Shown here: positions 19,201-61,615 of the stretch, one piece after another
Numbering within the stretch: position 1 is the first letter of the stretch
Layout of the letters: the number at the start of each line of letters is the position of its first letter
Origin: Apostichopus japonicus
Lineage: Eukaryota; Echinodermata; Holothuroidea; Aspidochirotida; Stichopodidae
Length of the DNA: 64,000 nt
Direction: 5' to 3'
Assembly: GCF_037975245.1 (NCBI RefSeq)
Contig: NC_092564.1
Coordinates: 13,852,484-13,916,483, forward strand
Notes under the pieces: model-generated
Databases searched by the model: none
What the model was told of the DNA's origin: nothing
The model's input: only the letters and a program-made list of their open reading frames with translations
Position numbers and translations under genes: made by a program

Positions 19201-22200
19201 ACTTGTTTACATTCAAAGAGAACTTGTGGAGATTCTAAGCTTCTTTTTAACAGTTGCTCTCTGAGATAAGAGTTGACTTTCTTTCAAACATCTTGATAAT
19301 GTAGAAAATTGCCTGTGTGACCCACATGAGTTTACATTATTACTTTATTCCTTTGGGTAATGTGTGTCCATGCAATGGATACTACTGTATATATAGGACA
19401 GTCTAATACAAATCTGTAAATAGTACAGAAAAGTACTGTCAACCATTGCTTATTGTATTTCAGTCACTTTGTCTATGGATTGTACCAATAACATATGGTG
19501 TGTACAGTATAAATGTTTGGTTATGGGGAAACAAGTCTCTGCTGTACATAGTTTTGAAGTACTTAAAATTGGATTGGTACTAACTAGTAACTACAATATA
19601 GAATGTTAATGCTACTGCTGAATCTGTATTCATGGTCTTTCAGATTTCAAATTTCCAGTTAAACCTATTCTAAGCAACTTATTTAAATCTTGCATAAAAT
19701 TCATTCATGCACTTTAATAGATGAGGTAGTAAGAAATTTGCTTACGTATACTGTATATTTATTGTAGTGGTAGCTTTTACCTACACTACATAACACTGAA
19801 CACTGTGTGTGTGTGTGTGGGAAGTAATGCGTCACAATAGTACAACTACACGCTGTAATGGAGATGAACTGAAGAAAAACTGTGCAGTGTGTTTAATACA
19901 CTGGAGCTTTATCTACCAGCAAGAAATTAAAGCTCTATGGGGCATGATTGCTATTTATCAGGTGCTTGACTTTATGAAAACAATACTTGTAAAGCTGTGA
20001 CACCTAACAAATTGCATTCCTGTTATGTATAACTCTACAATTGGAACAACATACTGTATAAATGAATGGAAGGTAGTTATTATCTAACTGTGGATATTCA
20101 AGTATCATTGTTGAAATTGTGAACAAAAATGTCAAGGAAGCCTCTGCAGAGTTAAGAGATGCAAATTGTAAAGTTTACTAGGACTTTGTTCGTTTGGAAA
20201 GTGACTAGTTTTCTTGGTCGTGTTTCATTTTCTTACAAGACAGACACTTCAAGTTTTTTTATTTGCATAAATTGACACTCATTGCTTTGGCTACTGCTTC
20301 CAGTCAATCTGGACCACAGTTATATTGTAACTTCTTTCTTTAAGATAATTCTGTTGTTAATGAAATTGTTGAGGAAGTACCATTATGCCTTACAAATAAT
20401 GAAAAAACAATGCCTACATTTAATAGCTCTCACTTGCCACCCTGAATTTTTAGTTGTATTCATTGAATCCACAGAGACGTATAGTTATTTGTACTTTTCC
20501 AGAAAGTTTCCATGATTTGTGATTATTTATTTATATTTTGTCTTCAGAAATGTTCCTTTTATCTTTTTCTTCAGGTACTATTCTTCTTGACACAGTTAAT
20601 CTGTCTACTACAGCAGGAAGAACCACAGACAAGGATACAAGGGTGGTGTATACTCTGAGTAGACATTGCCCAAATCTACTACACCAAGAAGTCTTTGATG
20701 CTTTACAAAAGTCCAAATTTGATGTCACAGGTAAGAAAAGAAACTACTCTAACTAACCATTTGTTTTAGTGAAATAATTGTCATTCATGAACAGATCTTA
20801 AGCATGCATATCACAGCCACCATCACAATAGTATACTACACTGTGATGTCACCCAGTTGGGACAAGTTTCCTATACCATACTTTCATGTCCTGTCTTTGA
20901 ACACTGGTACTGAGAGTACGAGCAGTTTAGGTTTCTATCAGAGAAAGATTAAGGAACTTTGTACTGTCAGAATGAGTGCTTTGAAGCATGATAGTAAAGT
21001 ACAGTATAGAGTGGTATTAGCATCGGCAATTGTTTCAACTGTCTGGTGATGTTTAAGTTTTATTTCATTTGTGTTACATTTTGAGAATAAATTTGGCATA
21101 GCAGAAATTGCTAGGCAAGTGCTTTGATATGTTTTGAGGCCAACCTTGTGTTGTAACTTTAGCATTGTTTAGTACAGATCGTCTGTTCTTCAATGTTGGG
21201 AATATTCAATGTAGCAGCGATAGTTACAGATAAGACATGGAACAGTTTCAGGTTCAAGTGAAAAAGGAACACCAGTTTCAGGATTTTCATACGTCGGCAA
21301 TGGGAGGGATTAGAGGTGGTTGTTGTGCAGCTCTTAGTCTAGGAATTTGAATGTTTACTCTTTAGTCCCCTGATGGAAGGAGTGGAAAGGGACAGTAAGA
21401 AATGTATAAGTGGACACTTTGATGATGTCCGATTAAGAGATCCATCCTAATTAAGATCCATCCTAAGAGATCCATCTGTTCGTTGCATATAAATTGTAAT
21501 TTGTACAGTGTAAAAAGTAACTGTTCTCAAGTAAACAATTTATGTTGAATTATTGTTTTGGTTACTATACTGTTCAGTTTGGAAATCTTAAATGCAAGAA
21601 TTTGCAATTATTTCAAGATGTCGACTTACATGTTCCTACTGTATTTCTTTTAGGTCTTTCAGCGATGGATGTTCTCAGAAAAGATTTTAAGTCCGTTTCT
21701 GATCAGGATACTACCATCGGTCTTAGCTCCATTCCTTGCTCTGTAGAGGTAAAGTTTTAATGATAAACATAACTAGTGGATTCTAGTGTTAACATTTATG
21801 CCATGTAAGATTTCTTACTTCATTGGTGCCAAATCATGCAATATGACAAATTTTCTACTTCACAAATTTTATTACTGATTCACATGTTAGTAGTCAGTTT
21901 GTTGCCATTTACCAAGCTAAAATTCTGTAGCCCCCACGAGTTATGGTTGTGTTATTAATGGAATACTACCTATCGTGGAGTGCTGACCCTTTTGATGGGT
22001 GGAAATTCTTGCCAGTGGTGCAGAAACTTGTGCAAAAATTTCTGAGATGTTTGGTCCATCGTAACTCTGTCTTAAATTTTATCTTATGACTTGCCGTTAT
22101 CAAGTTGGTCTTGATTAGGAAAATAGGTGAGAGCTGTTTTTCAGCTAATTATAACATGTTTGGCATTCTTGTTTTAGCTTGGGGATATCACTGTGGGGAT

Positions 22201-25200
22201 TTGGTGATCAATATTGATTAGTTTGGCTGTTTTTTGTTCTGAGATTGCAATACAATATCTAAAAGAATTAAGCAGTCCTGTAAAAACATCGCTTCATATT
22301 TTTACCCTGAAATATAGCTGTCAACTAGAATTTTTTTTTATATAATGGTGAATTACTTTTGTGAGACTTCTTTCAGCATTGCTGCTTTACATAGAAAGAG
22401 AGTGGGAGGGGGTGGGAGGTATGTGGTGGGGGGGTGGGAAAGATGGAAGGTAGGAGATACTGAAAGGTGGACCTTGGAATTTCATAATTACATACCATAA
22501 ATTGTTCATGCAACTCATTACAAGCAACTTGTTTAGCACACAAAGGTTGGAATGGGAGTCTGCCAATTGCAAAATTAACAAACTCCTGTTGGAACGAAGA
22601 AGCAAAACTCTTCAGTTATTGTAAATGCTGAACTTTTGAAGCTGCAGAGACTATGTGAAAGTCCTGCAGTCTGTGGCAACCTTTAGCAATGTATAAATTC
22701 AATGCAACAGTACACAATATATTGTAGCACAGGAGAAAACAATGAAGGTAGTAAAAAATATGTCAGTTCCAAAAACTGTAAAGGTGGTGTAGATAAATGT
22801 GCATGAAAGGTACAGGATTGCTTTAACTAAACACAATTGTGTACCAATGGTTGGGGAATAGTGCAGGTGTAAGCACCTCTCACATTTTGACCAGACCCCT
22901 AAATTGTGAGCGAGAAGGTAAAACTTTAACTTTTTTGTTATGCTTTAAACTTAGACCAAAAAAAAATTGAAGCCACTCCTAAAATTGACAAGTTTTACTG
23001 CTCTTCTCATACATCTTCTAGTAGTTATAGCTCTTAAACACCATCTAAATTTAAAAATATTTTATAAAAAGTGTAGGTATAAAGATACTTAGGTAATATA
23101 TAAATTAAGCAATTCTGGCTTTTAAAGGCAGTTTGCATTTGACTTTTGATCTTTAGTTCTTGTTTATTCTTCTTGCCATGAGGAGTGGTCTATGGAGATA
23201 CTGTATATCAACTGTAAATAGAGGAAAACCAATCTCTTTTTATGATCTTACCCTCTTATCTCCTCTGAAAGGTGACCCAGAAAGGATGTAAGGCAATCAG
23301 AAATATCCTGCGTTGCTCAGTAGGGTTTAATAAGATGCAATTAGCTTCTATCAACAGTGATCGGTTTGAAGGGCATTGAATATTTTAATATTGAATAGTT
23401 TGCAACATGAATGTAAAGGCAATACAAAATGAAGTACATGCATACACATACAAATACATATATATATACCGACACGGCCACACATACATATGCAAATATA
23501 AGTGAATGACACCAAAAGGAACCTGCCTTTTGCTTCCACCATTTAACCTTTCTTGCTGAGTTTTGATTCCTGTAAATTTCAGAATGAAAAAGTTCACAGC
23601 CCAATTACATCATTACAACACCTTTAATAGTCACTCATACGAGTCAACAGTCTAGGATTGATTTCTGTTGTACACATCCAATGTGCACCCATTGTCAACA
23701 TCTTAGAAATGAGACTAAAACCCTACCTTAAGTCATTTGCATTTGTTTATTAAAGTTGTTGAACCGCCCAGTCTCCGTAGCTATAGATGGTGGAATTGTA
23801 AAGGTTGGATTTTATTACCATTGGTACTTAAAATAGACAATGTTCATGGCAGGTCACAGTCTTTTCTCTGTTCAATGCACAATTAAACTTGCAGTACATG
23901 TTGAGGAATTGCCTTATGTAGGAGAGCAGGCTATGTGTGTAATAATGTCACACTGCTTGATTTAGCTTTCAAATCCAGTGGTGTTGCTGTTATTTTTGTG
24001 CCCCTGCATCACAGATGTAGAACCTAGGCTTGAAACTGGACAATGATACTAGAATAGAAATTACAATTTAATATCAGTAAGTAAATTATAGGAGATTTGG
24101 CAACCTCTATGCATATCAATAGACAAGCAACACTAGTAACATGAAAACAAAACCACAAACAAAGCCACAATTAATTGAAGATTGAATGAATATCAAACTC
24201 TACAATTCTTAGATTCTCCAAAGGAAAAATACATACATATGTACCTTAAGCAGACATCTATGAATCTTACTGTGGAAGTTTGCTTTAACACTTGAATCAA
24301 ATTTGATCACCACTTTAAGCATCTGTTGCTGCAGGAAGAGGCCAAAGCTGGTTGATTATTAATGGTTTGCTTCTAGCCGAGGTTTAACAGATTGTTATAA
24401 GAAGAGCTTCATTTCCATCTCAGACTTGTTTGCATCATTCTCAGTTTTCTTAAGAGCAGAGCTCTACACGTGCTGGTACTGTATGGCTTACTACAGTACA
24501 AAGACACAAGCATAGCATAGCATAGATAACAATGTTATTGTGTCGTATGTAGTGTGACAACAGATGGTAAAGTTGAGAAAGTCTTGTTCTGTTAAAGATT
24601 GAATGATGAGACTTACCATTGGCCTACAACACCTTCATTGCAGATTTACTGTGTAGATACTGCCTACTTTACACACATGAGTAGGGAAAATGTTGGTGTC
24701 ATTACCTGGTAAGGGTAATTTCCAGTCCTAGTTTCCCCTCTTTGGACAAGACCTGTAGCAAATGTCACTACAACAAACTCTCACATCGTACCTTGTTTTT
24801 GTCGTAGGTCCTTCTCGACAAGTCTGAAGGGAATCAAGTTCTTCAAGAATTTTGTGAGTCCCAGCGTCTTTCAGTTCTTCTACTAATGGCAGCCTTCCAA
24901 GGAGAAGATGGCAATTTGAAGAGAGAACTTGGGGTGTTCTCTCTTTCTCAGGAGGATGAAATGAGGGCAAAGTTAACATCTCACTTGACCTCTGATGCAG
25001 CTGGTCTGCAGTTGGAGGAACAGAGTGTGGATTGTAAAGATTTGTCCTCCTTTCACCATGGTAATGTTGGAGCTTCCAGGAAAGTTGTCCTTCCTCTTGT
25101 CCAGCAGTTTTTGGAAGAAGTGGGAGTAACCAACCAAAGTACCACAGGGGACAAACAGAAACCAGAGGACAGAAGAGCAGATGGAGAGAGTTCTGTTGAA

Positions 25201-28200
25201 ACCGAGGATGGAGGGTCAGAGATGAAGGTAGTAGACACTGCCGATCTTTTAGGCAGTTTTGAGCCCAGTTCTCAAACTAATTATTCTGGGGTTGCACCTA
25301 TATTGCATGGTAATACTAACAATTCTAATAGTTTTAACGGCGATGCTAGCTCAATAACACCGCAGCATGATATGCACATTCATAATATAACCACTGCTCA
25401 AAATATGCAACATGTATATAACCTGTTGGATTTAGATCCTATGTCACCAACAACCTCAGACCAGCAGCCAATCTCGCAAACAAGTTCTAGTTTGAACGAT
25501 TTGCTTGGTTTTGATCCTTTTTCAAGCTTAAATACTGACTTACAAGGTGAAGAGCAGAAAGAGGTATTTCAATCAGAAGGAAGTGTCTCATCTCCGATGG
25601 ATCAGTCCGATGCTATTAGTGATTCTCTGCTGTTAGTGGACTTTGGTGCATCAGAAGACCCAATCAGCCAAAGTACTGAGACTGAAGATGTATTCTCGGT
25701 CTTAAGTAGTCAAGGTCAGACTGGGTTTGAAATTGAATCAGGTAGCACAGATGGGAATGTTAGATTATCAGAGACAAGGGAAGGGTTTGATTCTTTCTTA
25801 CTAGAGCCAACTGAGATTGGGGATCAATTAATCAAGAGATTAGACCCCAGCATACATGGTAACAAGGATGATCACAGACAGGAATCCTTTAATGTGACAG
25901 ATTCTGATGGGAGCAGTCTGGCTGACTTAAAGAAAGATGATTTTCAAGATGAGAAAGAGGACAAAACAGTTGAAGAAATAAGTGGTATACAGAGAGATGA
26001 GGAGGACAAGATAGAAATGCCTGAAACCCTGGAAATATTAGTCTCTGAAAAAGACAGTTCAGATTTGTTGAGCAAAGGTTCAGAGGAGGATATTGCCTTT
26101 TTCGTTGAAAAGGCGGATAGCGAAAGGGAAGCAGGAACGTTGGATGAACTAGAATTGAATGGAGAATTAGCTGAAGAGAAAAGGGGCAAGTTTTCATCAA
26201 CTATCGCACCAAACAACTCATTTGGGGATTTAGATGAGTATGCAAGGACCAGTACACCACAACTAGATGATGATGAATTATCCGAAAAAGTGGAAGAACT
26301 ACATCGATCCAGGAGTGAAAGTTTAATTACAAATGAATCTCAAAATGAAGGAGATAAAATTACCATCAAGAATTTGGAGATGATTGCTACATTAGGAGCA
26401 TCAGGTAATGAAGTACAGGGAGAGGATGCAGGAGAGCAGACCACTATTTCAGAGTTGAAATCTTTTCTTGGAGTTTTAAACGGAGAAGAACACATTCATG
26501 GAGATGATAATAGTCAAAGTGATGATAAGGGAAACGATGTGGGTGATGAAGGTCTTACATGGGGTACGGTAGAGGAGGATGGAGCACATACAGAGGAAAA
26601 TGAAGATGATGATGTCAGTGGACAATCCTCAGATGCTCCTTTGCTGAGTGAAGGAGCTCTGTCCAATGACAGGGAAAGTGCAGAACATATAATAGTTCAT
26701 GAACGTCCGACCCAAAGTGAGATTGGAATAGAAATAGAGGCAGGAAAGAGTGACTCTGACCTGAAATATTCATCAGATAATGCTGATTCATCTGATCACT
26801 GTCCGTCTGAAGGCGATAAGGACACAAGACAGGGTTCATTTGATGAAACTTCTCAACAAAATTCATCTTTTGCAATGTTTACATCAAAAGTAGGAACCAG
26901 TGAAAAATTTGATGTGCAAGAGTCCGACAATGGTAGTGGGGCCAGTGATTGTGGTGGAACCATAAATGATGACAAATCCTTAAGCAGTGACCAGAATGAA
27001 ATGGACATGATGGATGAAAAGAAGATAGATGATGAAACAAATGAAGATGATTCAATGACAATTTCGGTGGATTTGCAGGTCAATAGCTTGCAAGAATTAC
27101 ACAGTGAGTATCAACATCATATTGCTGAGAAGATGCAATTTGGTCAAACTGAGAAAGTGGTTGACCACTTTTTTACTCCTGAGAGTGATGAGCTTTCTTA
27201 TGACAATCAAAATCTCAGAGGTTCTGAAGATCACACTGAAAACTATATCATTGAGGATGAATCTATGAACAAGTTTGCACCAGATGATACAGAAGATGAT
27301 GAAAGAAGCTCTCAAGAGCAGGTTGATGAAGAAGGTATTGATGGTGGTTTAGTAGGGAATGCTCTAAGCAATCCATCAATAATTGAAGTTGGTTTAACCT
27401 CTGGCAGTGATGTATCATCCAGAGGTGAACAGGACAACATTGGTGACTTTTCAAGTATGATGAGTAATGAACATGATGATAATGAGATAAGTAGTATCTT
27501 TGGAGATACTTCTTTTAAAAGTTCTTTGCTTGAAGTTGACACTCAAAACTTTGATGAAAATGAAAGTAGAGGTCAGACAAAAGAAAACATACAAACAAAT
27601 CCTTTTGCAAATGAGGTTGATGAACTCTTCAATGTTAATGAAAACTTAACAACAGAACAAGATGGTACACAAGTAGTCCCTTTTGAACATGAATTGAGCA
27701 GTGAAATGATCACTGGTACTACAAATGATCAGAAGTTTGATATTTCAGTAGAAAGTACCTCTGAGATAACTGTTTTTGAAGAACCCAAACAAGACACCCA
27801 CAAAAACATGTATGAAAGAGGAAGCCAGGTTCAATTGGAGAGTAGCCTTCAAACCAATCCATTTGGTGTTGGAGAACTGTCCAATGGGAAGCGATCTTTT
27901 AGAGCTGAAGACAAAGATATTCTTGGAGATGAAATAATTGATATTTCTACAGGAGGTACTTCTGATGTCATACCTGTATTACAACACAAGCTGAAAGTTC
28001 ATGAAACAAATTATGAGAGTCAATCAATGGGGAACCCTCAAACGAATCCTTTTGTAGGGGAGATGAAAATTCATTCTGATAGAAATCCCTTCATGGAAAC
28101 AGATAAAGAAGATATATCTGATCAAGACCTCTCCTGTCAAATGATGCAAACGAGTGACGATTATGCTATGGTTGAGAGCTCTGTGGATACTTCGTCTTTT

Positions 28201-31200
28201 GCAAGTCCTTCTTTACTTCTCATCAAGGGAGATGAACACCAGGATCAGGAAAAGTTTATAGAAGGTCCAGCAGACCAACATAGGCAGACCAATCCTTTTG
28301 ATGTTGAAATGGGAGGCTTATTTGATGAAAAACTGATATCCAATAGTGACCAAGGTATCTGGGATCCTGAAAAATCTGTGATGCAAGGTATAGGAGGCTC
28401 GTCATTTGTAAGTTATTCACAAGAAGATGATACTGGTGATCACAGCCATACCGAAGAGGAACAGATTACAGCTCTGTATGAAGGGAATCTGGAGTCCAAC
28501 CCTTTTACAAGTGGGAGTGGTTTATTTTACGACCCTTCTTCTAAAGCGGATGAAAATACAAATGGAATTGAAATTGGTGCAGATGAATTAGTTGCCTCAA
28601 AGGAAATAACTAATCATGAAAAGTCACCTGACTGGAAGCCACCAGTACCTTCTGATGGAAACCAACTTGATGGGGAAATGAGCAAAACAGTAAGTATTGA
28701 AGTATTTGAGACTGGTTATTCATCCGAGGAAGAAGGTGCTGACTTTGTTGATACAACCAAGGAAAAAGAATCTTTAGAAATGGTAGGTTATGACAAAGAT
28801 GATGAAGATGATACTGAAGTTTCTCCTGAAACCATGGAAACTGGAGAATTGGTACTGAATGGTAACCCTAACACACCCTTTGTGTTTGATATGTCAAATC
28901 AGCAGGTGGAAGAGAAGGGCCTGATTGATATCATGGCTGTAGAGGAAACAGAGAATCAGTTTGGGTCTGATGACATGGATAAAACACAGGAACACAAGCC
29001 AGACTCAGAAGAAGAAAAGAACAGAGGAAGTATAACAGTGTCTGAAGAGGGTTTGACAACTGAAGTACCTTCATCAGAAAGGGATTCAAATGCAGACAAG
29101 ACATTTGACTTCTTACCTGATGTAGACGTTTTACCTTCAAAGTCTGTGGACGACACTGTCATTGAAGACCAACATATTGTAGAAGAAAATGAGAATTCAG
29201 TTTGCTCCACAAGACAAGAAGGAGAGAGCCAAAAAGAAATAGATCAAGATGACATGGATTATGATGGTAATGATGCTTTATTAGAACTATCTGTAACTTC
29301 CAAGAAAGTGGACAAGGAAATGGCAGAACATCAAGTAGAAATGGAAGATAAGGGTGATGAAGATGTTGTCAAGGAACTAACAGTTGAATCTTTGGAAGTT
29401 CATCCCACTGTATATTCTCTAAAGGATGTGGGAAACCATAAGGATCAAGAATCTCAAGAAATGGACAGATTTGAAGAGGATTCAGTTGAGGAAGAAGAGA
29501 AGCCAAGAGAAGTAGGTTACAATGATATGGGTTTTAATGATTCATCTCAGTTTACCATAAGTGATGGTAATGAAGCTTTATTAGAATTATCTGTAGCCTC
29601 CAAGAAAGAGGAACAGGAATTGGCAGGACATCAAGAAATGGAACAAGAGGATGAAGATGTTATCAAGGAACAAGCAGTTGAATCTTTGCAAGTTCGTCCC
29701 ACTGTGCATTCTTCAAAGGATTTGGAAATCCATAAGGATCAAGAATCTCAGGAAATGGACAGGTCTGAAGATGAAGAAGAAGAGAAGCCAAGAGAAGTAG
29801 ATTCCAATGATTTGGGTTTTAAAGATTCATCTCAGTTTACCATAAAGGATGATAAGGAAGCTTTATTAGAACTATCTGTAACTTCCAAGAAAGAAGACCA
29901 GGAAATGACAGGATATCAAGAAATGGAAAATGAGGTTGATGAAGATGTTGTCAAGGAAGAAGCAGTTGAACCTTTGGAAGTTCATCCCACTGTACTTTCT
30001 CCAAAGGATGTGGGAAACCATAAGGATGAAGAATCTCAGGAAATGGACAGGTCTGAAGATGAAGAAGAAGAGAAGCCAAGAGAAGTAGATTACAATGATA
30101 TGGATTTTAATGATTCATCTCAGTTTACCATAAAGGATGATAAGGAAGCTTTATTAGAACTATCTGTAACGTCCAAGAAAGAGGACCAAGAAATGTCAGA
30201 ACATCAAGAAATGGAAGATGAGGATGAAGTTGTTGTCAAGGAGCAAGCAGTTGATCTTTTGGAAGCTCATCTCACTGTACATTCTCCAAAGAAGGTGGGA
30301 AACCATAAGGATCAAGAATCTCAAGAAATGGACAGATCTGAAGCGGATTCAGCAGAGGAAGAAGAGGAGCCAAGAGAAGTAGATTACAATGATATGGGTT
30401 TTAATGATTCATTTCAGTTAACCATAAATGATGGTAATGATGCTTTATCAGAACTATCTGTAACTTCCAAGAAAGAGGAACAGGAATTGGCAGGACATCA
30501 AGAAATGGAAGATGAGGGTGATGAAGATGTTGTCAAGGAAGAAGTAGTTGAACCTTTGGAAGCTCATCCCACTGTACATTCTTCAAAGGATTTGGAATAC
30601 CATAAGGATCAAGTATCTCATGAAATGGACAGGTCTGAAGATGAAGAAGAAGAGAAGCCAAGAGAAGTAGATTACAATGATATGGATTTTAATGATTCAT
30701 CTCAGTTTACCATAAATAATGGTAATGATGCTTTATTAGAACTATCTGTAACGTCCAAGAAAGAGGACCAAGAAATGTCAGAACATCAAGAAATGGAAGA
30801 TGAGGATGAAGTTGTTGTCAAGGAGCAAGCAGTTGATCTTTTGGAAGCTCATCTCACTGTACATTCTCCAAAGAAGGTGGGAAACCATAAGGATCAAGAA
30901 TCTCAAGAAATGGACAGATCTGAAGAGGATTCAGCAGAGGAAGACGAGGAGCCAAGAGAAGTAGATTACAATGATATGGGTTTTAATGATTCATTTCAGT
31001 TAACCATAAATGATGGTAATGATGCTTTATCAGAACTATCTGTAACTTCCAAGAAAGAGGAACAGGAATTGGCAGAACATAAAGAAATGGAAGATGACGG
31101 TGATGAAGATGTTGGCAAGGAAGAAGTAGTGGAACCTTTGGAAGCTCATCCCACTGTACATTCTTCAAAGGATTTGGAATACCATAAGGATCAAGTATCT

Positions 31201-34200
31201 CATGAAATGGACAGGTCTGAAGAAGAAGAAGAAGAAGAGAAGCCAAGAGAAGTAGATTATAATGATATGGGTTTTAATGATTCATGTCAGTTAACCATAA
31301 ATGATGGTAATGATGCTTTATCAGAACTATCTGTAACTTCCAAGAAAGAGGAACAGGAATTGTCAGGACATCAAGAAATGGAAGATGAGGGTGATGAAGA
31401 TGTTGTCAAGGAAGAAGTAGTTGAACCTTTGGAAGCTCATCCCACTGTACATTCTTCAAAGGATTTGGAATACCATAAGGATCAAGTATCTCATGAAATG
31501 GACAGGTCTGAAGATGAAGAAGAAGAGAAGCCAAGAGAAGTAGATTACAATGATATGGATTTTAATGATTCATCTCAGTTTACCATAAATAATGGTAATG
31601 ATGCTTTATTAGAACTATCTGTAACGTCCAAGAAAGAGGACCAAGAAATGTCAGAACATCAAGAAATGGAAGATGAGGATGAAGTTGTTGTCAAGGAGCA
31701 AGCAGTTGATCTTTTGGAAGCTCATCTCACTGTACATTCTCCAAAGAAGGTGGGAAACCATAAGGATCAAGAATCTCAAGAAATGGACAGATCTGAAGAG
31801 GATTCAGCAGAGGAAGACGAGGAGCCAAGAGAAGTAGATTACAATGATATGGGTTTTAATGATTCATTTCAGTTAACCATAAATGATGGTAATGATGCTT
31901 TATCAGAACTTTCTGTAACTTCCAAGAAAGAGGAACAGGAATTGGCAGAACATAAAGAAATGGAAGATGACGGTGATGAAGATGTTGGCAAGGAAGAAGT
32001 AGTGGAACCTTTGGAAGCTCATCCCACTGTACATTCTTCAAAGGATTTGGAATACCATAAGGATCAAGTATCTCATGAAATGGACAGGTCTGAAGAAGAA
32101 GAAGAAGAGAAGCCAAGAGAAGTAGATTATAATGATATGGGTTTTAATGATTCATCTCAGTTTACCATAAATGATGGTCATGATGCTTTATTAGTACTAT
32201 CTGTAACGTCCATGAAAGAGGCCCAGGGCATGGCAGAACATCAAGTAGAAATGGAACAAGAGGATATAGAAGATGTTGTGAAGGAACAAGCAGTTGAATC
32301 TTTGGAAGCTCATCTCACTGTACTTTCTTCAAAGGATTTGGAATACCGTAAGGATCAAGTATCTCATGAAATGGACAGGTCTGACGAGGTTTCAGCAGAG
32401 GAAGAAGAGAAGCCAAGAGAAGTAGATTACAATGATATGGGTTTTATTGATTCATCTCAGTTTACCGTAAACAATGGTAATGATGCTTTCTTAGAACTAT
32501 CTTTAACTTCCAAGAAAGAGGACCAGGAAATGACTGGACATCAAGAAATGGAAAATGAGGATGAAGAAGATGTTATCAAGGAGGAAGCAGTTAAATCTTT
32601 GGAAGCGCATCTCACTGTACATTCTTCAAAGGATCTGGAATACCATAAGGATGAAGTATCTCAGCAAATGGACAGGTCTGAAGATGAAGAAGAAGAGAAG
32701 CCAAGAGAAGTAGATTACAATGATATGGAATTTAATGATTCATCTCAGTTTACCATAAATGATGATGGTAATGATGCTTTATTAGAACTATCTGTAACTT
32801 CCAAGAAAGAGGACCAAGAAACTTCAGAATATCAAGAAATGGAAGATGAGGGTGATGAAGATGTTGTCAAGGAAGAAGCAGTTGATCTTTTGGAAGCTCA
32901 TCCCACTGTGCATTCTTCAAAGGATTTGGAATACTATAAGGATGAAGAATCTCAGCAAATGGACAGTTCTGAAGATGAAGAAGAAGAGAAGCCAAGAGAA
33001 GTAGATTACAATGATATGGAATTTAACGATTCATCACAGTTTACCATAAATGATGATGGTAATGATGCTTTATTAGAACTATCTGTAAAGTCCAAGAAAG
33101 AGGACCAAGAAACTTCAGAATATCAAGAAATGGAAGATGAGGGTGATGAAAATGTTGTCAAGGAAGAAGCAGTTGAACTATTGGAAGCTCATCCCATTGT
33201 GCATTCTTCAAAGGATCTGGAATACTATAAGGATCAAGTATCTCATGAAATGGACAGGTCTGAAGATGAAGAAGAAAAGAAGCCAAGAGAAGTAAATTAC
33301 AATGATATGGAATTTAATGATTCATCTCAGTTTACCATAAATGATGGTAATGAAGCTTTATTAAAATTATCTGTAACCTCCAAGAAAGAGGAACAGGAAT
33401 TGGCAGGACATCACGAAATGGAAGATGACGGTAATGAAGATGTTGTCAAGGAAGAAGCAGTTGATCCTTTTGAAGCTCATCCCACTGTGCATTCTTCAAA
33501 GGATTTGGAATACCATACGGATCAAGAATCTCAAGAAATGGACAGATCTGAAGAGGATTCAGAAGAGGAAGAAGAGAAGCCAAGAGAAGTAGATTACAAT
33601 GATATGGGTTTTAATGATTCATCTCAGTTAACCATAAATGATGGTAATGATGCTTTATTAGAACTGTCTGTAACGTCCAAGAAAGAGGACCAAGAAATAT
33701 CAGAACATAAAGTAGAAAAGGAATCTTTGAATGTTCAACTGACTCTTGATCCTTCTATGGATATGAATAATCATGAGGAGCAAGAATTAAATGAAAATAA
33801 CAGGGATGAAGAGGTTTCTTCAAAGCCAGAGGAAGAGAATCCAAGAGAGGTAGATCACAATGAGATGGATTATGCTTACTCATCTCAGTTTACCATAAAT
33901 GATGATGGTAATTATGCTTTATTAGAACTATCTGTAACTTCCAAAAAAGAAGACCAGGAAATAACAGGTCATCAAATAGAAAAGGAAGATGAGCATGAGG
34001 AAGAAGTGATCAAGAAACAAACAGTTGAACCTTTGGAAGTTCATCCCACTGCAGATTTATCAAAGGATGTGGAAAACCACCAGGAGCAAGAATCTTTTGA
34101 AATTGATGGAGATGAAGAGGGTTCAATAGAGGAAGAAGAGAATCCCAGAGAAGTAGATCACAATGAGATGGATTTCAAGCATGAATACCAGTTTGTTGTA

Positions 34201-37200
34201 AATGATGAAGAAAGGGATGTACTCAAACTCACAGATGACTTGAATCTGCTAACTGTTGAACATAAGGAGAGTCAACTTGATGAAGTTGCTGTCTTTGTAG
34301 AAGATAGTGTAGCTAGTGATGAAAGAGTAATGGATACCATGGAGGAGAGCAAAGAGGTCGATGCTGGTGGGGAACATGGAGTTATCAAACTAGATGATGG
34401 CGATTTCAAAGTATCTACTGGAGGAAGAACAACAGAGTATGAAGATGAAGTCAACAAAATGTCAATAAAAACAGAAGATTATTGTATTATCAGTGAAATA
34501 ATTGATGGTATTATTTCTCAGATTGTTGGTGACAAAATGGAGAATGACTTGGTAACTAGAGAAAGAACAACTGAGAATGCATTATTTAAAAGGGAAGCTG
34601 AAGAGGAACAAGAGAATGCGATTACATCTACTCATAATAAGTATCCACAGGAAGAAATCACAAGGAAAGTTGAGGAGATGAACCCTGAAAGTTGTCCATC
34701 TGGCATGAAACAAGATGATGTATCACTTAGTTATAAAAAGCCTGTACAAATATCATCCAACTTCAGTGATTTAGAAGCCAAACAATTTGAACTCTCTCTC
34801 AAACCACCCGGGAGCATCGTTGATGAGGAGGTGACATCTCCTGTTCTCTCAGATCTCTCAGAGTCGGGAGTAGATATGTCTCCCAATCATCAGTCTTCCA
34901 GTCCTAAAGTCAGACCAAGTTCTTTGAGTCTCTCTGACCTGTCTATTAACAGTAACAAAGGGGCATCTGTAGCTCTAGCCCACATGGACACACCTACCAT
35001 ACTGTCCCCAAGTCTAGACTCTCTCTCAAGTTACAGCCATGAGGGATACTTCGCATCGCCAGACTTTGAGGATGATACTCCAACACCTGGTATGTCAGAT
35101 GTCAAGTCTCTGAGAGGGATGGAAACTGATGAACCAGCTTATAAAAGAGCTCTGTCGGTTGACTCTGAGCTTAACAGGAATGTTAACAGAGGCTGGTCAG
35201 ATAACCAGTCCTTGCTTGATGCCATTCTACTCACTCAGGTGAATATGGGAGCAATTAACACTTTCTCTCTGACTTTTAAGCAGATTCTCATTGTATCCAC
35301 CATTCTAGTTTTTTTCCAACCATCACAAAGTTTTTAGCCTGTTGGTATTTAAACTATGCCAGCAAAATTAAATTAAAAATTTGGGTGAAAAGATGAGGAG
35401 CAAAAACACATCCTGTTGAATTGAATGTCTTATTTAGTGTTATATGATCTTGACAGAAAAAGGGGGCAAGTGGGTAACACAAAGTGTAAAATTAGAACAA
35501 AACGGGCAACAAAATTGGTAAAATCGATATAGATCACTGCAATGCCAAATTTGTTTCGTATCGTAAAGAAATATGGAACTAGGAGTGCAAAGTGGAGAAC
35601 AAATTTCTGTGATGCCTGACTCAGTATCATGTGTAGCATTTTAAAAATGCTTCATTTTATTGTGTATGAGACTGTCCCAGTGGGTAGATGTTCATACCTG
35701 ATTGTATTTTCTCAATTACAAAAAAAATCAAGAAGATTCAAAGACTTCTTTCACTTTAGACCTTTCAAACTTACTTCCTCATCATAATTTTATCTGCTTA
35801 AAAGTCAAAGAGTTTATGGGAGTAGCCCAGGCATTAACAGCTATTTATTTCACTCATATATTCAGCATTATTTAATCCGCCATGCATCCCCTATTAATCA
35901 GTTCACTAATCATCAAATTTATCAACCAAACATTCACACTTTTCATCTATTGAAGGACTTACCAGTCACTTGCAAGATTCATCTTTTATTCAGGGGTTTG
36001 TCTCAGTATCAAATTGTTGACCATGCCATCTTCTTATAACATCTTTAGCATCTCAGAAAATAAAATATCTCATCCTTTGATAATGGTGTGAGGTGTCATA
36101 GCTGAAGATATCTTAGTATATTAATAAAAGTAACACTTCTATCTACCAGTAGTAACAAAATGTAAAATGATGCATGGTGGTGGAATTTACTAACCTAATT
36201 AAACTAGTTTTTGTTTCTAAGTCAAGTAAGATTTCTGTTTATTGTTCAGTATTTGAAATTCATATTCATCTAAGGTGTTTTGTTGATGTCTTTTATCTAG
36301 TAAATAATAGTGAACATATACAAATGAATTTTGTAACTCGCAACCCTCTTTCAGGATATATATTTGACCAGGACTAATTTTTGATATTTTGTTGTCATTT
36401 CAGGGCGTGCTAATTCATTACTACTCTGTTTTATAGGTTGTGCTATATGTTTGCTTTTGCAGATTGTAAGACCTGGTGTACTGTAAGTTAATTTTCTTGA
36501 CTTTTTTCCCCCCTTTGTTGCATACTATCTGTATTTCTGATTTTATTTAAATGTTTAATAAAAACTTTTAGAAATCAAGGGAAGAATTGACAGAAGAGAC
36601 TCCTCAAGCAGAAGCTGATATGAGTGCAGATGCAGACCAGCATGGTGCAGAAGATAAAACTACAGATGAAGCCAGAGAAGCTGAACGGGGTGAAGCAGAG
36701 GGTGCAGAGGAAGATGATATGGACAACATATCCATTAAGATTACCAGGAAGGACCCTCCCAGCATAACCCCAGAGGTGCAGGCGCTGGTAGACGAGGCTG
36801 ACGGGGGCAGGGGGAGGCTAGATACTCTACTCTCGGATACAAGCATCGGGGATTTTGATTATGGCGATGACGACGACGATGACGATGAAGATGAGTCTGA
36901 CCGAGAAGCCAAGGGTGAGGAGTGATGGAAATGTTGAATTATATATGTATCACTATTGGAAGTGTAAAATCACCTTACATGACAATGTCTGCAGTCTAGT
37001 GTAGCATCTGTTGAGATGGAATAGGTGTAGGATGACCACAGAATAAAAGTAAGTAAGTTGGGTATCCCTACATTGAGAGGTACAGCTAATTTATCATTGC
37101 TGGTTTACAGGAAATATTATGACTGATGGATGCTATGCAACCACACACTTGATAGATGATGACTCATAGTGAAAATATTAATATGATTCAACCAATCAGG

Positions 37201-40200
37201 ATTGGGGAGCATTTTCCTCCTCTCCTTCCCATAGAACCCATAAATAGGGGGTATTTTTCTAGAAATTTACTTATCAGGAAGGAAATCATATTGTCACTCA
37301 GTTTGTCTTTTGTGTAATATGTAGATTTTGTAGCATTTGCCTATAAAAAGATTAATTCTGGAAGTTTACATGTTGAAATGACTGTCTGACAGGTTGCAGT
37401 TTCAATTTATATGTCTTTCTGTTGTATTAAGCTAAACAAATGACATATTTCTGGTAAGCGTATGACATGCTTAGTACTGTTCAAGATTTTATGATAACAT
37501 ACTTTGTGATTAGAGATGTTAAAAGTAGTTTAGCCCAATTGTAGCATTTTTGAGGATATGTTTTGTTATGTGTTAGTGCTTGCAGTTTTGTCATTATGTA
37601 AGGGCTACTTTAGAATACTGGAGTTCTGAAGATGATTAGTTCTTCTTTGTTGTCAGGTGCTTACAGCGGGGCTGCGGATTCTCCCAATCGAAAACGACTT
37701 TCTGCCGAACTTGCCCTTAATCTTGAGGACGGGACTTCCATCACTACAGAGATCATAGATGCAGCTTACCCAGCTGTTCTTACACCATCAAGTACTGAAA
37801 TGTCTTGGGATGGTCAGTAATTCTTTCAATTTGATTACATTTATAATTTCTTTGCGTCATAGGAAAAGGTCATATGTTATGAGTTTGGAATGTTTTTAGT
37901 CAAACTTTCAATGCTCACTGTTAAAACAGTCATATGTGAGACTATTTTCAGTGAAATCTGTGATATCAGATCGAGTTGGAATCATAAAACAGCTCATTAT
38001 ACACAGCAACACTAATGTGCCTTTGGTTTCTCTTTGGTGGAGGTTGTTTGATCATTTTTCATGAAACATCCCAATGTTTCACTCTGGGGGTAATTCTTGC
38101 ACAGGATCTCATTCACAGCATTTTTCTAGAGAACTTAAGTGTAGACCTGCTAAAATGTGTGATAAAAGTAAAGTTTTTAGATAAATTGATGCAATTCTAG
38201 TTAATGGGTTTGGATGTAAGCATTCAATAGTTTTGCTTTGTTCATGGGTTCCTCTTTAACCTGAACTCTTCCTCCCTCCCACTCCTACCACCCCCACCTC
38301 CAGTCTCCCTCCCTCCCACTCCTACTGTCGCCACCTCGTCTCCTCTCCTCCCACTCCTACCATCCCCACCTCCAGTCTCCCTCCCTCCCTCCCACTCCTT
38401 CCATCCCAACCTCCAGTCACCCTCCCTCCCACTCCTACCATCCCCACCTCCAGTCTCCCTCCCTCCCCCTTCTACCATCCCCCCACCAGTCTCCCTCCCT
38501 CCCACTCCTACCATCCCCACCTCCAGTCACCCTCCCTCCCCCTTCTACCATCCCCCACCTCCAGTCTCCCTCCCTTCCCCTTCTACCATCCCCCACCTCC
38601 AGTCTCCATCCCTCCCACTCCTACCATCCCCACCTCCAGTCTCCATCCTTTCCCCTTCTACCATCCCCCACCTCCAGTCTCCCTCCCTCCCACTCCTACC
38701 ATCCCCACCTCCAGTCTCCCTTCCTCCCACTCCTACCATCCCCACCTCCAGTCTCCTTTGTTAGTTGACATAATACCTTCATTTTTTACTTCTTTGTAGA
38801 TGATACATCCATGGACAAGAAATCATCAAAGCCTGAGAAAATCGCAGAGTACACCGCTAGAGAAGAACACGAAGACAGATGGCGTTGGCGAACGGTTAAA
38901 ATTGGAGACACAGAGCACATGGTGGATAATAAAGTCATCGAGCCATTTAAGAAGGTTCTTTCCCATGGAGGTATAGAAGCAAAACTTGTTTCATAGTTTT
39001 ATTGGCTAATTAACTTAGATGTTACAAGCAGACTGGGGGCATTTTGTTAAGCAACCATTGCTCATTGATATCTAGTGCTATGTAATATGTGATGGATGTC
39101 TTAAAGTATATGCTGACTCAGAATGACAATGTGTGTTGTACCTGTTGCTAAATCCTAAAATTTATATATATGTTTATATTTTTTTTCTGTTAATTTTTTG
39201 GGGCAAAAATGATGCAGATGATTTAGATTCACTGCTTCTTTTTCTGATCTCCACACAACCAACCATCTTCAATTAACTGTGCAGAGGTCTGTGTTTTATC
39301 CAGTAACTGGAATCAAGCCAGTTTTTTATCTATGGCCTCCTTCACACCCTAGCTTTTTCCAAGTCCTCAATATTCAAGGCATACACATGTACAAAGATCT
39401 AGCTATCTGACATTGTTTGGGGAGTTTCAAACTTCCAGTGACCACTCACACACATTTGCATCCACTGATAACCATCTACACAGTCAATACCAATCCTGTT
39501 ACCTATGCAGAAGACAATTTGTTGATCTACTGCACTTAAATAAGGCTTGAAAACCTTGAAAGAAATGTCCAAATTTGACAAGCAGCAGCTAATAAATATG
39601 AACAAAAGATTGTAAGGCATTGCTGTCTACTCATTAAAAATGTTGAAACAACTGGTGGCAATTTGTGAAGGACACTTAATTAGTTTGTTGCCTGCTTTGT
39701 CCGTAAATCAAGTCCTGTCACGATATGATAGGTTTCATGGTCATCGAGAATGATTGGATTGAGTGATTGACTACATGAAATAATTTATTACAAAAACCAA
39801 TCAAATTTTCATTTGCAGGTTACTATGGCAACACCATGAATGCTGTGATTGTAATTGCCTCCTGTTACCTGCCAGAGAAATCAAGAAAGGACTACGAATA
39901 CGTCATGCATAATCTCTTCCTGTGAGTATGAAATTTGTATATTTTATATATACATATTTATATATATTACAAATATATATATTTGTATATTTTTTTCCTC
40001 TTCCAGAATTAGATCAATCACTATTTACTTATTGGAAAAAAATTGGGTATCATAATTAGGGAAAACTGCTTTGTATTCCGTAATAATGTCAAATTTGTTC
40101 TGAGTAAAATCAACATTGGAAAACTATGGGAAGTTTTATAGCCAAAACTTTTCTTTCCAATAGTTTGATCTAAGTAAGATCCAAAAGTTAATGAGTTAAA

Positions 40201-43200
40201 GATTAGACTCTGTGTGTGTTCAAGTTTGGCCTTCCTCATAGCATTATAATGGGATGTGTTTGCTGTGTTTCTTATCACATGTAAAAGAGCTCTGTTAGCT
40301 TCAAGCTTAGATCTGTGTTATCGAGGTAATATTCAAGTTTGCATTGACCTGACCTCAGAACGGCTAAGAGTTGACAAAGTCACCACAAGTACATTATTTA
40401 CAAAAATTCTTTTAACAGTTCTTTTGAAATTAATTTACATTGTAGTCTTGGCTTGTTTAAACATGCATATTCAAAAGAGTTTTCATAGTGAGGCAGAGTT
40501 ATCAAGGCAGGTTTTGTAAGTGGAGTTTGTTACCATCACATACTGCTCTGTAATTTTATTGCATTAGATTGTATGTTTAGTTTGCTATGGTTAACAAAAA
40601 TCATCTTGTCTGTGTTTTTACAGGTATGTAGTGAGTAGTTTAGAGCTTCTGGTCGCTCAGGACTACATAATTGTATACTTCCATGGTGCTGCTCCTCGTA
40701 CGAAGATTCCAAGCCTAGCTTGGATGAAACGCTGCTATCAGATGATTGACAGGAGGTAAGGTCCTCCTCTCATATCTTATACCGTGACATGTCTCACTCC
40801 TCTTGTCTGTCACATAACTTATTTTATGTGTGAAAAATTGTTGCAATTAATATAAATGTTCACTGTTCCTTTTCCTTTTTAACTTTGAATTAACAACCCT
40901 CTTCCTCACATGACTGTAGATAATCTCAAACTCAGACCAAGATGAATCTGTAACATAATATACTTTTAAGTAAATAGACTGGTGTTAGAAAAACATTACA
41001 ATTTTAAATAGATTTGTTTATGGCATTTATGATTCATTGAAGCATGATTGTTGTTTTTGTGACTTTCTGCCTTTAAGACCTGTCTTACTATATCAGGCTT
41101 ATTTAAGAGAAGCTTTGACATTGTGTGTATTCATATAGTTCAACACAGGTTTCTCTTATCTATCTTATTTATATTTATTGTTTATAATTAGGCAATGGTT
41201 TAATAATATTTGATTCATTATTTACAGAAATATACCAAGGTTTGAAGGAATCTTGCAATTTTCCCCCAAAACGTATTACCTGACTTTTTAAAGTTGAATG
41301 TATAGTAAAGAATTCAATAGTACAAGATGTACATTTATCTTTAGGATAACCGGTTGTTGTACCTCAACCTCAAGGAGATAGTACTCTCAAGGAGATGGTA
41401 AACCTTAAAGAGTTAATAAAACTGAAGGAGATGGGAACCTCTCAATGGTCTTTTGGTGAAGAGATAAGATGGTTGTTCAAATCAGTTCAAGACCTATAGA
41501 GCAGTTGTTATCTTTATGCACAACTTTCCTTTTTAATTTTTTTTCTCTTTTGAATTTTAGGTTAAAGAAGAACCTGAAAGGACTGTACATAATCCATCCT
41601 ACAGGGTGGTTAAAGACAGTAATCACCTTTACTAGGCCCTTTATTAGGTAAGATAATCCATCCTACAGGGTGGTTAAAGACAGTAATCACCTTTACTAGG
41701 CCCTTTATTAGGTAAGATTTCACCATATTATCAAAGTTAGGCTTATTTGTAAGAATGTATCCTATAGAAAGTTTATTTCCATGAACAAAAGAACATATAT
41801 ATCCTTCACAAACAAGAATATTTCCTACGGATATTTACTAGAGAGGGGTGTAGATTATTGGGTGATCTGTTCCAAACAGTGTTGCATATTCATGAGTACC
41901 TTCTTTGGTGTTCCTACACCCTATGCATTACATTATATACTTTTTGTAGATATAAATCGATCTGTCACAGCCTAATACATCAAGAGTATTTACCAGTTTA
42001 TACTTCACATACTGTAATGATCCCCCAAAATAGGAAAGCTATGGAAGGAAGAATTACCAATAGACGATATTTCGACCGTGGAATGCTGGCTAGTGAAAGT
42101 ATTTTTAATAACAAATTGTTTCAAAAGTGCCTAATGCATAATGACCCAATGTAGGAATTTACAGGTTGCACGACTCAACAGGTATTGCATAACTTTACAT
42201 GCAAATCGATAATGGATAGCATAAATTTGTTGGTTGTTGGTGGGGAGTATGTTACCTGTGGCAAGAGGGGTTCATATGAAAACGTATCGAAATGAATGTA
42301 AAATACCTCTAAGACTACTACAAAGTCAAGTTTATGTAATACCTTTTCTCTGTTTTTGTTTTCAGTGCCAAATTTTATAGAAAGCTGAAATTTATTTACA
42401 AATTAAGTGATTTGAAAAAAGTTATTTCTATGGAGTACATTTACATCCCTGAAGAAGTGAAGAGGTAAGATCATCTTCAGCTGCAAGAGTGAAAATGTCA
42501 GCAAAGTGTTTGTTAACATTATGTTTTAATAATCTGTTCAGAAAAAAAAAATCTAGTAAGTAAATTTTGAAACAATTGCATTGGTCACATGATCAGGCAT
42601 ATTCATGTCATTGTGATGTTCTTAGAAATTGGTGGCAGTATTCACCTGACATGAACCTTATTTTCGCCTAGCGCTTTTCCATAAGTGTCATAAAGTATTC
42701 AATCACAATCCATCCATCAGAGAGTTTTGATGAAACATAAGATTTTGGGGTCTTCAGGACATTTTAGAGGAATGCTCAGCTTATCATAAATCGTTTGCAT
42801 TCAGATTCAGCTTCTGATATATTCAGTATTTGGCTTTGACAGTATGCAAAGTTGTAGAACTGCAAAATAAACAGTTGTCAAAGTCTCAGAGAAAATTATT
42901 ATTGATTATAGAGGATATAGTGTAGGCTGGGTCTCAAAAAGGCGAGCATCCATTATTCGGATTCTGTCTCATACAATTTTGGTAATTATTTTTATAATAA
43001 TGAAAATTTTGGTGACTCATAAGTCCTGACTTGAAAGGGTACTCATTGCTGTGTGATTTGTGGAAAGTCTGTCTGTAAAGTTGAATGTGATGATGGATTT
43101 GCAATCTGCCCGCTTTTATTTATGGTGTTATAAAATTATCCCCTCTAGACCATTCATTCTGCATCAGTATCATACAATGTAAGTTACTAATGTAAGATAT

Positions 43201-46200
43201 GAACATTGGATGTCCTAGATTGCCCCTTGCATTGATCAGGATTCATTCCAAAAGTTAATTCTGCGTTTTTTCAGATTCCTTCCTCTATAAAATGACTGAT
43301 AACCACATCTCTGCCCTGCCCCCTCTTCTTGAAAAATTTCCTACAGCAGGTTTAGAAAATCAAGTTTGCTGCACCCTGAATCTTAGTTATTAAATCCCTG
43401 TTAGTGAATTAGAACCCTGCATCCCTTTAACTGATAACTTCTTGCTCCAAGCTGCCTCTTCGTCAATAATCCTCTCCAATTAATGTTGCACTTTAACACA
43501 AGACTGTAGAATATTTGTAGAACTATTCGTGAGGAAACTTGCATTCTTCTTTAGGTGAGGTCAACGACAGAAGAATTTCATTTAAATTGATTGCGTTACA
43601 GCTTAATTTCTGTTTTATCAGATTTGTTGAAACAGAAACCTTTGCCTAGGTTGGTAGTGGATATTCTAAAGTTTGAGTTCAAATTTCCTGATGCCATTTC
43701 AAAGCAAACATCCAGAAGTAGTCTAGATAAATCTCACTTTCATAGATGTCTAGCCAAACTTACTTTCAAATTTAAATGGAGGTTTCAGATGTTGTTGTCA
43801 TGGACTGCAGATGAGACTTTAACTTCTTGACAACTGTGTACATTTTTGGGGTGAAAAGAGAAAAACACTGCTCCAATAACTTGAGAAGAATCTGTTAAGA
43901 AATGGAGTCAGTTAGGCAAGACAACCGGTTAGTTGATTATATGGTAGCTTGACAAGCTCTTTGTGGGTCAGAAAATGAATCGGAAAAGGATTCATTTTAG
44001 GTTTTTTCTAAATGACTCAATTATGGGTTGTTTTTCTTTCAGTCGCTAAGTTTTCAATTTTATCACCATTTTTATTGTTTCTGAACTCTGAGGAAATACT
44101 TGACATCCTTTTCTTGAATAAGCCTCTTATTTTTGTAGGAATTACCACTGGTTTTGATGTAGGCCTTGTAGTGTACTATATTTCTAGAAGTGCAACGATT
44201 GAAGCTTTCCATGTCGGTAGTGTGTTCTATTTTTCACCTTAAACATCCTCATTGAAAGCATTTGCGCTCATTAGTGTCTAATATGCTTCACCACGCTTGA
44301 GTTGCCCATGGTTGGAGTCACGTCCCCTAGGTTGAAGTTGGGTCCCTGCGGTTGGACTCAAGTCCCTGCTGTGGGAGTCAAGTGTCCCTTTAGCTAGAGT
44401 CATCTTTGGTACCCCTCTATTGATGTCCATTTTGGTAGAATTCACTTTTGTTAGGATTCCTCTATGGAGGTCTCTTCATCTGGAGTCACTTCCATTTAGC
44501 CATACAAATGAAGTCCCTTGCGTGGAAGACACTACCATTGGGGATGCCTGTGCTAAGGACCTATTGTTTAAACTAATCATTTTAGTTGGACTAAGTGTAG
44601 ATGTAGTCTCTTCAAGGTCCAGCCTACTTTTTAACAGTGCCATTAAGATTGGTTCACCCTCCAATAAGTAGATACCTTTCTGCTGAAGCTTGTTCAGATC
44701 CTCAGTTGAGAGAGATTTATACTAACTTGGTGTAAATGGATAGTGGAGCTGATTGCATTGTGTTCTAAACTCTCTCAGTTAGTAGTATGTTACTTTAACT
44801 CTCATTGTGTGGTAGACTGAGGAGACACCTACTCTCGTGAAGTTTTGTATTTGATATGAAGGTTTCCTTCTAGCTGGGGGTCAGAATTATCATACTCGAG
44901 GAAACCTAGAAGGTGCCAGATATATGAAGACAGTCATATGAAGAGTCGGTTCTATACGCTGAATTAATAGTGGACTCCGTAAAGTGAACAACAAAAATTA
45001 TCCCTGTTTTTAAGCTGTATGAAGAGTGGGAACTTAGTGACATGTCAGTGATTTGTCTGTGATTGTTAAGTTTGTTTTTATTACGATGTAACTCAGGCTT
45101 TAGTGAGCACTCTGATTGTAACACTCCATTAATGAGACAGAGTTAACCATTGGAGTTTGCTTGTTTACTCTAAGATAAAGTTACGTTAAGATCCTAACCT
45201 ATTGCTGTTTCTGTGAAACCGGCAGCTCCATTGCTAATCACTATAAACATAAAAAGTTGCCCTCATGACATTGTCTTGTGCTAGCAATCAATACATCTCA
45301 TTCTTATCCCCTCCGTTTTTCTACCTTCCATAGATTTGACGACACCAAACAGGAAAAGGTAATTTTGTCACCCCATTGATCTCATATATATATCTCCATT
45401 GCATTGTATGCACAGCATGTTTCTTAGGCATGGTGGGCGTTCATCGTGTGGCAATCTCCGTGGCCATGCACCGCCATCACACCGTGCAATATATATTAAA
45501 CAATCTGACCGTCCGGCACCAGGTTGTGCTACTTACAACCTTTCTACCAAGACATGGACATGGACCAAGTGTTGACAAGGTTACTCGGTTGATAGTCGGT
45601 GCCGTCAGTCACAGTGTTCTGTGTTTTTAAATGTGATTAAATATCAAAACATGATATGTGTTTAGTTTCTTGAAAGAATGGAATTAGGAAGCAGTTTTTG
45701 TTAGAAAGAGTGAACACTCAAATTTAGGATTCATTAATGTAGAGCTTCATGCCGTATTCCTTCCTTGTGATTAAGTGGTTTGAAAACTTACCCTAACAGG
45801 TTTGTTTTGAAGAGCTATTTCTTTCTTGAAAGTGCAATGTTTCTGAATATAACTTCAAAAATCCAAAGCACCATTTACCTGTTACTCAAAGGCTTTTGTT
45901 GTATATGCTCAATATCAAAGCAAATTTGAAGTGTTCTATTAAATCTCTGTTTGTGAGAAACCCAATTCTGCTAATTAATTCAAACTTTAACATGTAAAAT
46001 TCTCACAGTTACTCCCAGGAAATAATCCTGTTCTTCCTTATCTCTTTTTTTCACTCTTCCAATTTTTGTTTTTTGCAACCCACCACATTGTGCTTTTTCG
46101 ATTAGCCCGGTGTAAACCTCTGTTAATGTGTTTGTCGTCACTTTTCTCCTTGCGTTTTTACAGGCTGTCAGACCTCCAAGTGGTCAGTACTTTCACTTCT

Positions 46201-61550: not shown

Positions 61551-61615
61551 CTTCAGGCATTTCGAGTCGTTACTATAGACTGACTAGTCAAATTCCATTA
61601 GTCGTGATTATAAGA

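Follow-up and report, generated by a model that had tools for sequence, protein, structure and literature searches.

A tandem array of uncatalogued acidic repeats in the giant linker exon of a PRUNE2/BMCC1-type gene of Apostichopus japonicus

The window analysed here is a stretch of 64,000 nucleotides from the holothurian Apostichopus japonicus (assembly GCF_037975245.1, contig NC_092564.1, positions 13,852,484 to 13,916,483 of the forward strand), and positions are given as those of the window. It contains a gene with the head-to-tail architecture of PRUNE2/BMCC1, in which nearly half of the linker between the prune-like head and the C-terminal tail is a tandem array of 17 acidic units of about 96 residues. 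The unit is new to the libraries that were searched. Its amino acids change at a rate close to neutral, its reading frame has been kept and part of the array is a recent duplication. The array is best read as a passive, polyanionic and unfolded spacer within a fast-evolving PRUNE2 linker that would have grown by unequal crossing-over, a reading of the sequence to which we give a probability of about 0.5.

Tandem Repeats Finder reported one array, at 29261-33712 and with 15.3 copies. It appears in two overlapping rows, one with a period of 291 (87% matches, score 6300) and the other with a period of 288 (86% matches, score 6223). Unit borders were set by splitting the frame at the constant motif PREV, and this gave the first two of the following features. 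The third was found within the array.

29257..34155, + strand: repeat array, 17 units of 86-101 residues (Tandem Repeats Finder, PREV split, unit alignment)
34156..34239, + strand: remnant of an 18th unit, 28 residues (PREV split)
30358..32108, + strand: recent 873-base (three-unit) duplication, the 878 bases of 30358-31235 being repeated, with 5 mismatches, 873 bases downstream

An earlier note on this DNA had placed about 17 tandem acidic repeats of 96 residues at 29251-34215. The repeats and their number hold, and the span does so in part, with the full units ending at 34155 and only the remnant reaching 34239. The units measure, in order, 86, 95, 96, 98, 96, 98, 97, 96, 98, 96, 100, 96, 97, 97, 99, 87 and 101 residues, so that 12 of the 17 are 95-98 residues long; unit 1 is without about 14 residues near its start and unit 16 has an internal loss. 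PREV terminates every one of the 17 units in one common frame, and the units therefore differ in net length by multiples of three, in agreement with the note. The stop-to-stop frame around the array is 3,509 codons long (24808-35337). The array makes up 46% of the stretch from the end of the DHHA2 domain to exon 9, in agreement with the "almost half" first proposed. Identity between units is 56-100% in protein and 76-100% in DNA, compared with a best value of 38.5% among random in-frame pairs of 288 bases (up to 2,000) drawn from the linker before the array. Many columns of the unit alignment are invariant. Net charge runs from -18 to -29 per unit and totals -391 over the 1,633 residues of the array. 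In a search of the whole assembly (671.6 Mb, 35 contigs), the unit was reported at this locus only, with 17 matches, and no second array or haplotype copy was reported elsewhere.

The longest exact run within the recent duplication is 547 bases and includes all of units 6 and 9, which are identical. The units most diverged are those at the 3' edge, 16 and 17, with 56-65% protein identity to the other units compared with 67-100% among units 1-15. Mixing inside an array and decay at its edge are expected of unequal crossing-over. The near-exact duplication, taken with the diverged 3' units, points to a recent expansion of the array by this process, which predicts variation in copy number between individuals. 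Could the array instead be an artefact of assembly, with units added or collapsed and the copy number wrong? Over the 547 exact bases the copy number could indeed be misjudged. However, outside the near-identical units 4-10 and the pair 13/14, the DNA differences between units are about 8-24%, a single frame runs through all of them, and the array spans less than 5 kb, the assembly consisting of 35 contigs. Because most copies differ and all share a frame, an artefact is highly improbable.

The earlier note had called the unit undescribed, and the database searches agree, with curated cut-offs as the thresholds for Pfam and with NCBIfam being a prokaryote library. No Pfam family was above its cut-off in the whole of exon 6, the giant linker exon that holds the array, nor in three pieces of the array searched at E up to 1. 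For the whole exon two models remained under their cut-offs: UBA_MELK scored 19.9 bits (cut-off 27, E 0.00074) and PUA_4 17.1 bits (cut-off 23.9, E 0.0059), both scores being sums across copies, with no single stretch that passes. NCBIfam gave 0 matches to the unit. A single-sequence phmmer search of the Protein Data Bank (PDB) gave one match, at E 6.4, and a profile search gave 0. Membership of a known repeat family was rejected, there being no convincing match in Pfam, NCBIfam or the PDB, and the unit is uncatalogued and new to these libraries.

Recent duplicates look conserved with or without selection, and for this reason silent and amino-acid changes were compared. The pairwise ratio of nonsynonymous to synonymous change (dN/dS) was 0.88 among the 17 units, 0.87 among the 11 distinct units and 1.00 among the 9 of those that remain without units 16 and 17. 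In a count of one-step codon changes from the consensus, which leaves out 33 multi-step changes, 27 of 134 distinct changes were silent (20.1%, compared with 22.3% expected without selection, P 0.60), giving an omega of 1.14 with a 95% interval of 0.74-1.81. With a codon model on a fixed tree, omega for the whole unit was 1.04 when all 17 units were used (P 0.82 for a difference from 1) and 1.11 with the 11 distinct units (P 0.55). Stop codons are absent from the array, whereas 6.4 would be expected (P 0.0017). The neutral-like omega and the absence of stops together indicate that the frame is kept while the residues drift. The idea that the fixed landmarks of the unit mark docking sites is not supported by this comparison. 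Change over the whole unit is in neutral proportion, no 10-codon stretch in a scan had significantly fewer amino-acid changes than chance would give (permutation P 0.96), and the landmark HPTVHSSKD lies in stretches that are among the five changing fastest. This suggests that the landmarks are largely the residue of recent common ancestry.

The composition of the array suggests that it is disordered. On the charge-hydropathy scale it lies at +0.41, on the disordered side, compared with +0.22 for the linker before it, +0.16 for the linker after it, -0.04 for the BCH domain and -0.14 for the DHH-DHHA2 head. A scaling law for unfolded chains gives a calculated radius of gyration of about 16 nm for the array alone.

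The gene around the array was modelled as 14 exons with AG/GT at all internal borders and continuous phase, and the joined model is open for 4,115 codons. Its exons are as follows.

4216..4257, + strand: proposed N-terminal coding exon 1; phase continuous with that of exon 2, GT donor, inferred only and the weakest exon
15370..15474, + strand: exon 2, start of the DHH domain (GNPACDLDS); AG/GT borders, phase, Pfam DHH on the joined model
16451..16850, + strand: exon 3, DHH domain (IIDHHDN); Pfam PF01368
20575..20730, + strand: exon 4, between DHH and DHHA2 and reaching into DHHA2; AG/GT borders, phase
21654..21748, + strand: exon 5, first part of DHHA2; PF02833 below cut-off on the exon alone, above it in the joined model
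24808..35238, + strand: giant exon 6, 10,431 bases and 3,477 codons, with the end of DHHA2, the acidic linker and the array; open frame, DHHA2 match in the first codons, AG/GT borders
36572..36914, + strand: exon 7, acidic linker; AG/GT borders, phase
37657..37812, + strand: exon 8, linker; AG/GT borders, phase
38800..38970, + strand: exon 9, BNIP2 region; Pfam PF12496
39819..39921, + strand: exon 10, BCH domain; joined model, PDB match of the tail
40624..40755, + strand: exon 11, BCH domain; PF13716
41561..41647, + strand: exon 12, BCH domain; PF13716
42366..42464, + strand: exon 13, end of the BCH domain; joined model
45334..45358, + strand: exon 14, tentative, with the true C terminus not settled; joined model

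Four Pfam families were above their cut-offs in the joined model: DHH (PF01368, 44.2 bits, cut-off 28.1), DHHA2 (PF02833, 71 bits, cut-off 27), BNIP2 (PF12496, 59.9 bits, cut-off 27) and CRAL_TRIO_2 (PF13716, 91.9 bits, cut-off 23). Among PDB sequences, the tail matched Rho GTPase-activating protein 1 best, at E 2.8e-24. The DHHA2 domain continues directly into exon 6, and the only DHHA2 match and the only BNIP2 match reported in the assembly are those of this gene, weak matches possibly being missed. From head to tail, the predicted protein has the architecture of PRUNE2/BMCC1, including a giant linker exon between DHHA2 and the BNIP2 homology. That head and tail are joined in one transcript is predicted from the 14 exons being in phase without a stop.

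Several other features were seen in and near this gene. An open frame of 129 codons at 51628-52017, protein-like and terminated by a stop, is perhaps its C-terminal exon, but the phase judged by eye did not fit exon 14. At 41589-41718 a segment of 64 bases is duplicated exactly and in tandem; the duplication includes the 3' portion of exon 12 (BCH) together with the splice donor, which leaves two identical donors spaced by 64 bases. The intron just before the BNIP2 exon contains a minisatellite of 13 copies of a C-rich 37-base unit (38267-38756), and a second minisatellite, of 5.9 copies of a 28-base unit with 96% matches, lies downstream at 47183-47348. At the junction of exons 8 and 9 (37795-38820) the spliced sequence reads EMSWDDD, which resembles the tryptophan-acidic motif bound by kinesin light chain; an example of that motif in the accessible part of PMC6214655 is the SKIP peptide TNLEWDDSAI.

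In other proteins, NPF, clathrin-box and DPF motifs serve to recruit EH domains, clathrin and AP-2, and motifs of this type are found in exon 6 before the array.

25423..28506, + strand: endocytic-type short motifs before the array, with LLDLD at 25423, DPF at 25513 and NPF at 27598, 27856, 28045, 28084, 28291 and 28498

The six NPF motifs compare with 0.10 expected by shuffling. Their contexts are QTNPF (four), ESNPF (one) and DRNPF (one), so that T or S precedes NPF in 5/6. Clathrin-box patterns, LLDLD included, number 4 compared with 0.92 expected (P 0.02), and the DPF/W pattern occurs once compared with 0.21 expected (P 0.19), which for DPF alone is not beyond chance. All of these precede the array. 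Binding of NPF by EH domains is described in the part of PMC12370899 that we consulted, and the cluster at 27598-28506 is likely to be an EH-domain-binding region of this PRUNE2, as predicted from its motifs. The array would lie in an endocytic setting. In human BMCC1, AP-2 is bound through residues 575-904 and the protein is located on endocytic vesicles, according to the sections of PMC3765211 available to us.

The array itself was scanned with a list of docking motifs (NPF, DPF/W, FxDxF, clathrin box, W-acidic, EEVD and others), and apart from SIM-like, CK2-like and REVD patterns none was found in more than 3 of the 17 units. The clathrin box occurs 0 times, FxDxF in 3/17 units and DPF in 1/17. 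SIM-like matches number 13 compared with 6.2 expected, in repeats that are not independent, and CK2-like matches 64 compared with 66.5, both patterns being too loose to weigh. REVD, which is itself a landmark, has 14 copies. Caspase cleavage at REVD was considered and rejected; in its accessible text, PMC4669766 concerns the activation of caspases by BMCC1 and not cutting at such a site. A tyrosine-acidic kinesin motif at DYND was considered on account of a tyrosine near acidic residues. It was not adopted, the published examples in the consulted part of PMC6214655 being C-terminal, and remains a lead.

How might such an array act? On the spacer reading, repeated unequal crossing-over of one acidic segment of about 96 residues would have lengthened the disordered linker of PRUNE2/BMCC1. 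The array would separate the prune head and the endocytic-type motif stretch (LLDLD, DPF and six NPF) from the C-terminal BCH domain, and, wherever the protein is retained, would make it bulkier and more negative. The features that would count are an open frame, the length and the overall acidity, and the exact residues would matter little. We infer this role from an array that is in-frame, acidic and nearly half of the linker, for which the extended acidic spacer of the earlier note is still the best reading.

A number of results weigh against it. With the tree fixed, the landmark block (alignment columns 1-33 and 99-103) has an omega of 0.56 (P 0.044) for 17 units and 0.65 (P 0.18) for 11, compared with 1.55 for the remainder of the unit (P 0.025 and P 0.033, respectively); these P values are nominal, the block having been chosen after the alignment was viewed and the units sharing history through crossing-over. 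When a tree was fitted to each block, the values for landmark and rest were 0.48 and 1.52 for 17 units and 0.79 and 1.59 for 11. The one-step counts give no firm separation (13/44 silent in the landmark block and 14/90 in the rest, Fisher P 0.07). The unit may therefore not be uniform filler, and a mild constraint may act on PREV-DYNDM...SSQFTIND...[11 protein letters not shown]. Selection on charge, moreover, is not visible. Charge shifts of 0, 1 and 2 were found in 59, 41 and 7 of 107 changes compared with 54, 40 and 6% expected, and the mean charge drift is not clearly below neutral (P 0.10). AlphaFold predicted three units without secondary structure, at a predicted local distance difference test (pLDDT) score of 34, yet a single-exon piece of the folded DHH domain, run without an alignment, scored as low, at 32, so that this prediction carries no weight either way. 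Knock-down of BMCC1 in human cells left transferrin uptake unchanged, as stated in the available part of PMC3765211. Finally, sequence does not separate a spacer from filler that is merely tolerated.

That last point leads to neutral expansion, in which unequal crossing-over in a permissive disordered linker has produced filler with no function beyond an intact frame. An omega near 1, the drift-like change in charge, the recent duplication and the divergence at the edge are all consistent with it. Every unit is nevertheless strongly acidic, although plain inheritance may explain the acidity, and we regard neutral expansion as possible but doubtful. We think it unlikely that the array is a multivalent docking platform, also raised in the earlier note, with one short motif per unit, most probably in [36 protein letters not shown], and 17 copies providing avidity for a single endocytic, cytoskeletal or motor partner. 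The low omega of the landmark block and the invariant columns would fit such a platform, as would the binding of AP-2 by human PRUNE2 as a scaffold (PMC3765211, in part) and the binding of MAP6 by a short PRUNE2 isoform, though this is the C-terminal isoform (PMC3327665, in part). However, the constraint is marginal and the block was picked post hoc, the scan found no significantly depleted stretch and placed HPTVHSSKD in one of the fastest, and clathrin-box, FxDxF and DPF motifs each occur in at most 3/17 units of the array. A more specific form of the idea, which is quite improbable, holds that a landmark segment of about 38 residues would be a docking module present 17 times, its valency tuned by unequal crossing-over while the acidic rest diversifies under weak positive selection. 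If this were true, copy number would be a heritable setting, probably polymorphic, by which the endosomal or motor traffic of the animal is adjusted.

Elsewhere in the window, an open frame of 454 codons at 61517-62881 has an NHL repeat over the cut-off and is probably part of another gene. The cox1 gene of the assembly was read with mitochondrial code tables 5 and 9, and table 9 (AAA as asparagine, ATA as isoleucine) yields the residues conserved in cox1, as expected of an echinoderm. A second contig besides C35, contig C29, contains pieces of cox1 with TGA codons (14745-16086 and 30842-31219), which would be either inserted mitochondrial DNA or a mitochondrial contig that was misassembled.

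With the exception of PMC2655648, the titles and abstract openings of the papers listed showed nothing relevant to repeats in PRUNE2 or to the gene in echinoderms and other invertebrates. Among the echinoderm matches listed, which are a small part of the total and no proof of absence, PRUNE2 was not mentioned. Nor was it mentioned among the matches listed for PRUNE2 with EH or NPF, and among those for PRUNE2 with disorder and endocytosis it was found only in PMC3765211. The exception, from 2009, reports in its accessible part that PRUNE2 homologues are absent from the African frog, fish and invertebrates. By the architecture of the predicted gene, the reported absence from invertebrates conflicts with this assembly, and newer annotation may since have put that statement right.

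The array is thus a real and uncatalogued repeat in a gene of known kind. Its mode of origin is ordinary, and the interest lies in a PRUNE2 linker that has been lengthened naturally. The full PRUNE2/BMCC1 architecture, giant linker exon included, is placed in an echinoderm. A linker grown by tandem duplication also offers a natural case in which individuals or species can be compared for linker length and for what it does to trafficking. The array carries a caution as well, as recent duplication alone can make a drifting segment resemble a set of motifs.

Three known systems may be compared with this gene. PRUNE1 and insect prune are short and without the linker and BCH tail that are present here, and have the DHH and DHHA2 domains in common with it. 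Endocytic adaptors such as Epsin1 and AP180, and the NPF/DPF networks of Eps15 and Dab2, resemble it only in how they work, with NPF, DPF and clathrin-box-like motifs next to a chain that is long, acidic and probably unfolded. The head here is prune-like and not ENTH, ANTH, EH or PTB, the motifs precede the array, and binding is only predicted. Membrane curvature is driven by the disordered domains of Epsin1 and AP180 (PMC4515776, in part), and by analogy a role in membrane curvature is possible for the array. The closest likeness is to vertebrate PRUNE2/BMCC1, with its DHH and DHHA2 head, one giant and fast-evolving linker exon, and tail of BNIP2 homology and BCH (CRAL-TRIO) domain. We know of no such repeats in the vertebrate linker. 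Human exon 8 is 6,598 bp long and encodes 2,199 residues, with a human-chimpanzee dN/dS of 1.38 (PMC2655648, in part). Since it is likewise giant and fast-evolving, a linker exon of this kind is not peculiar to A. japonicus; the exon here differs in its length of 10,431 bases and in the tandem array that forms nearly half of the linker.

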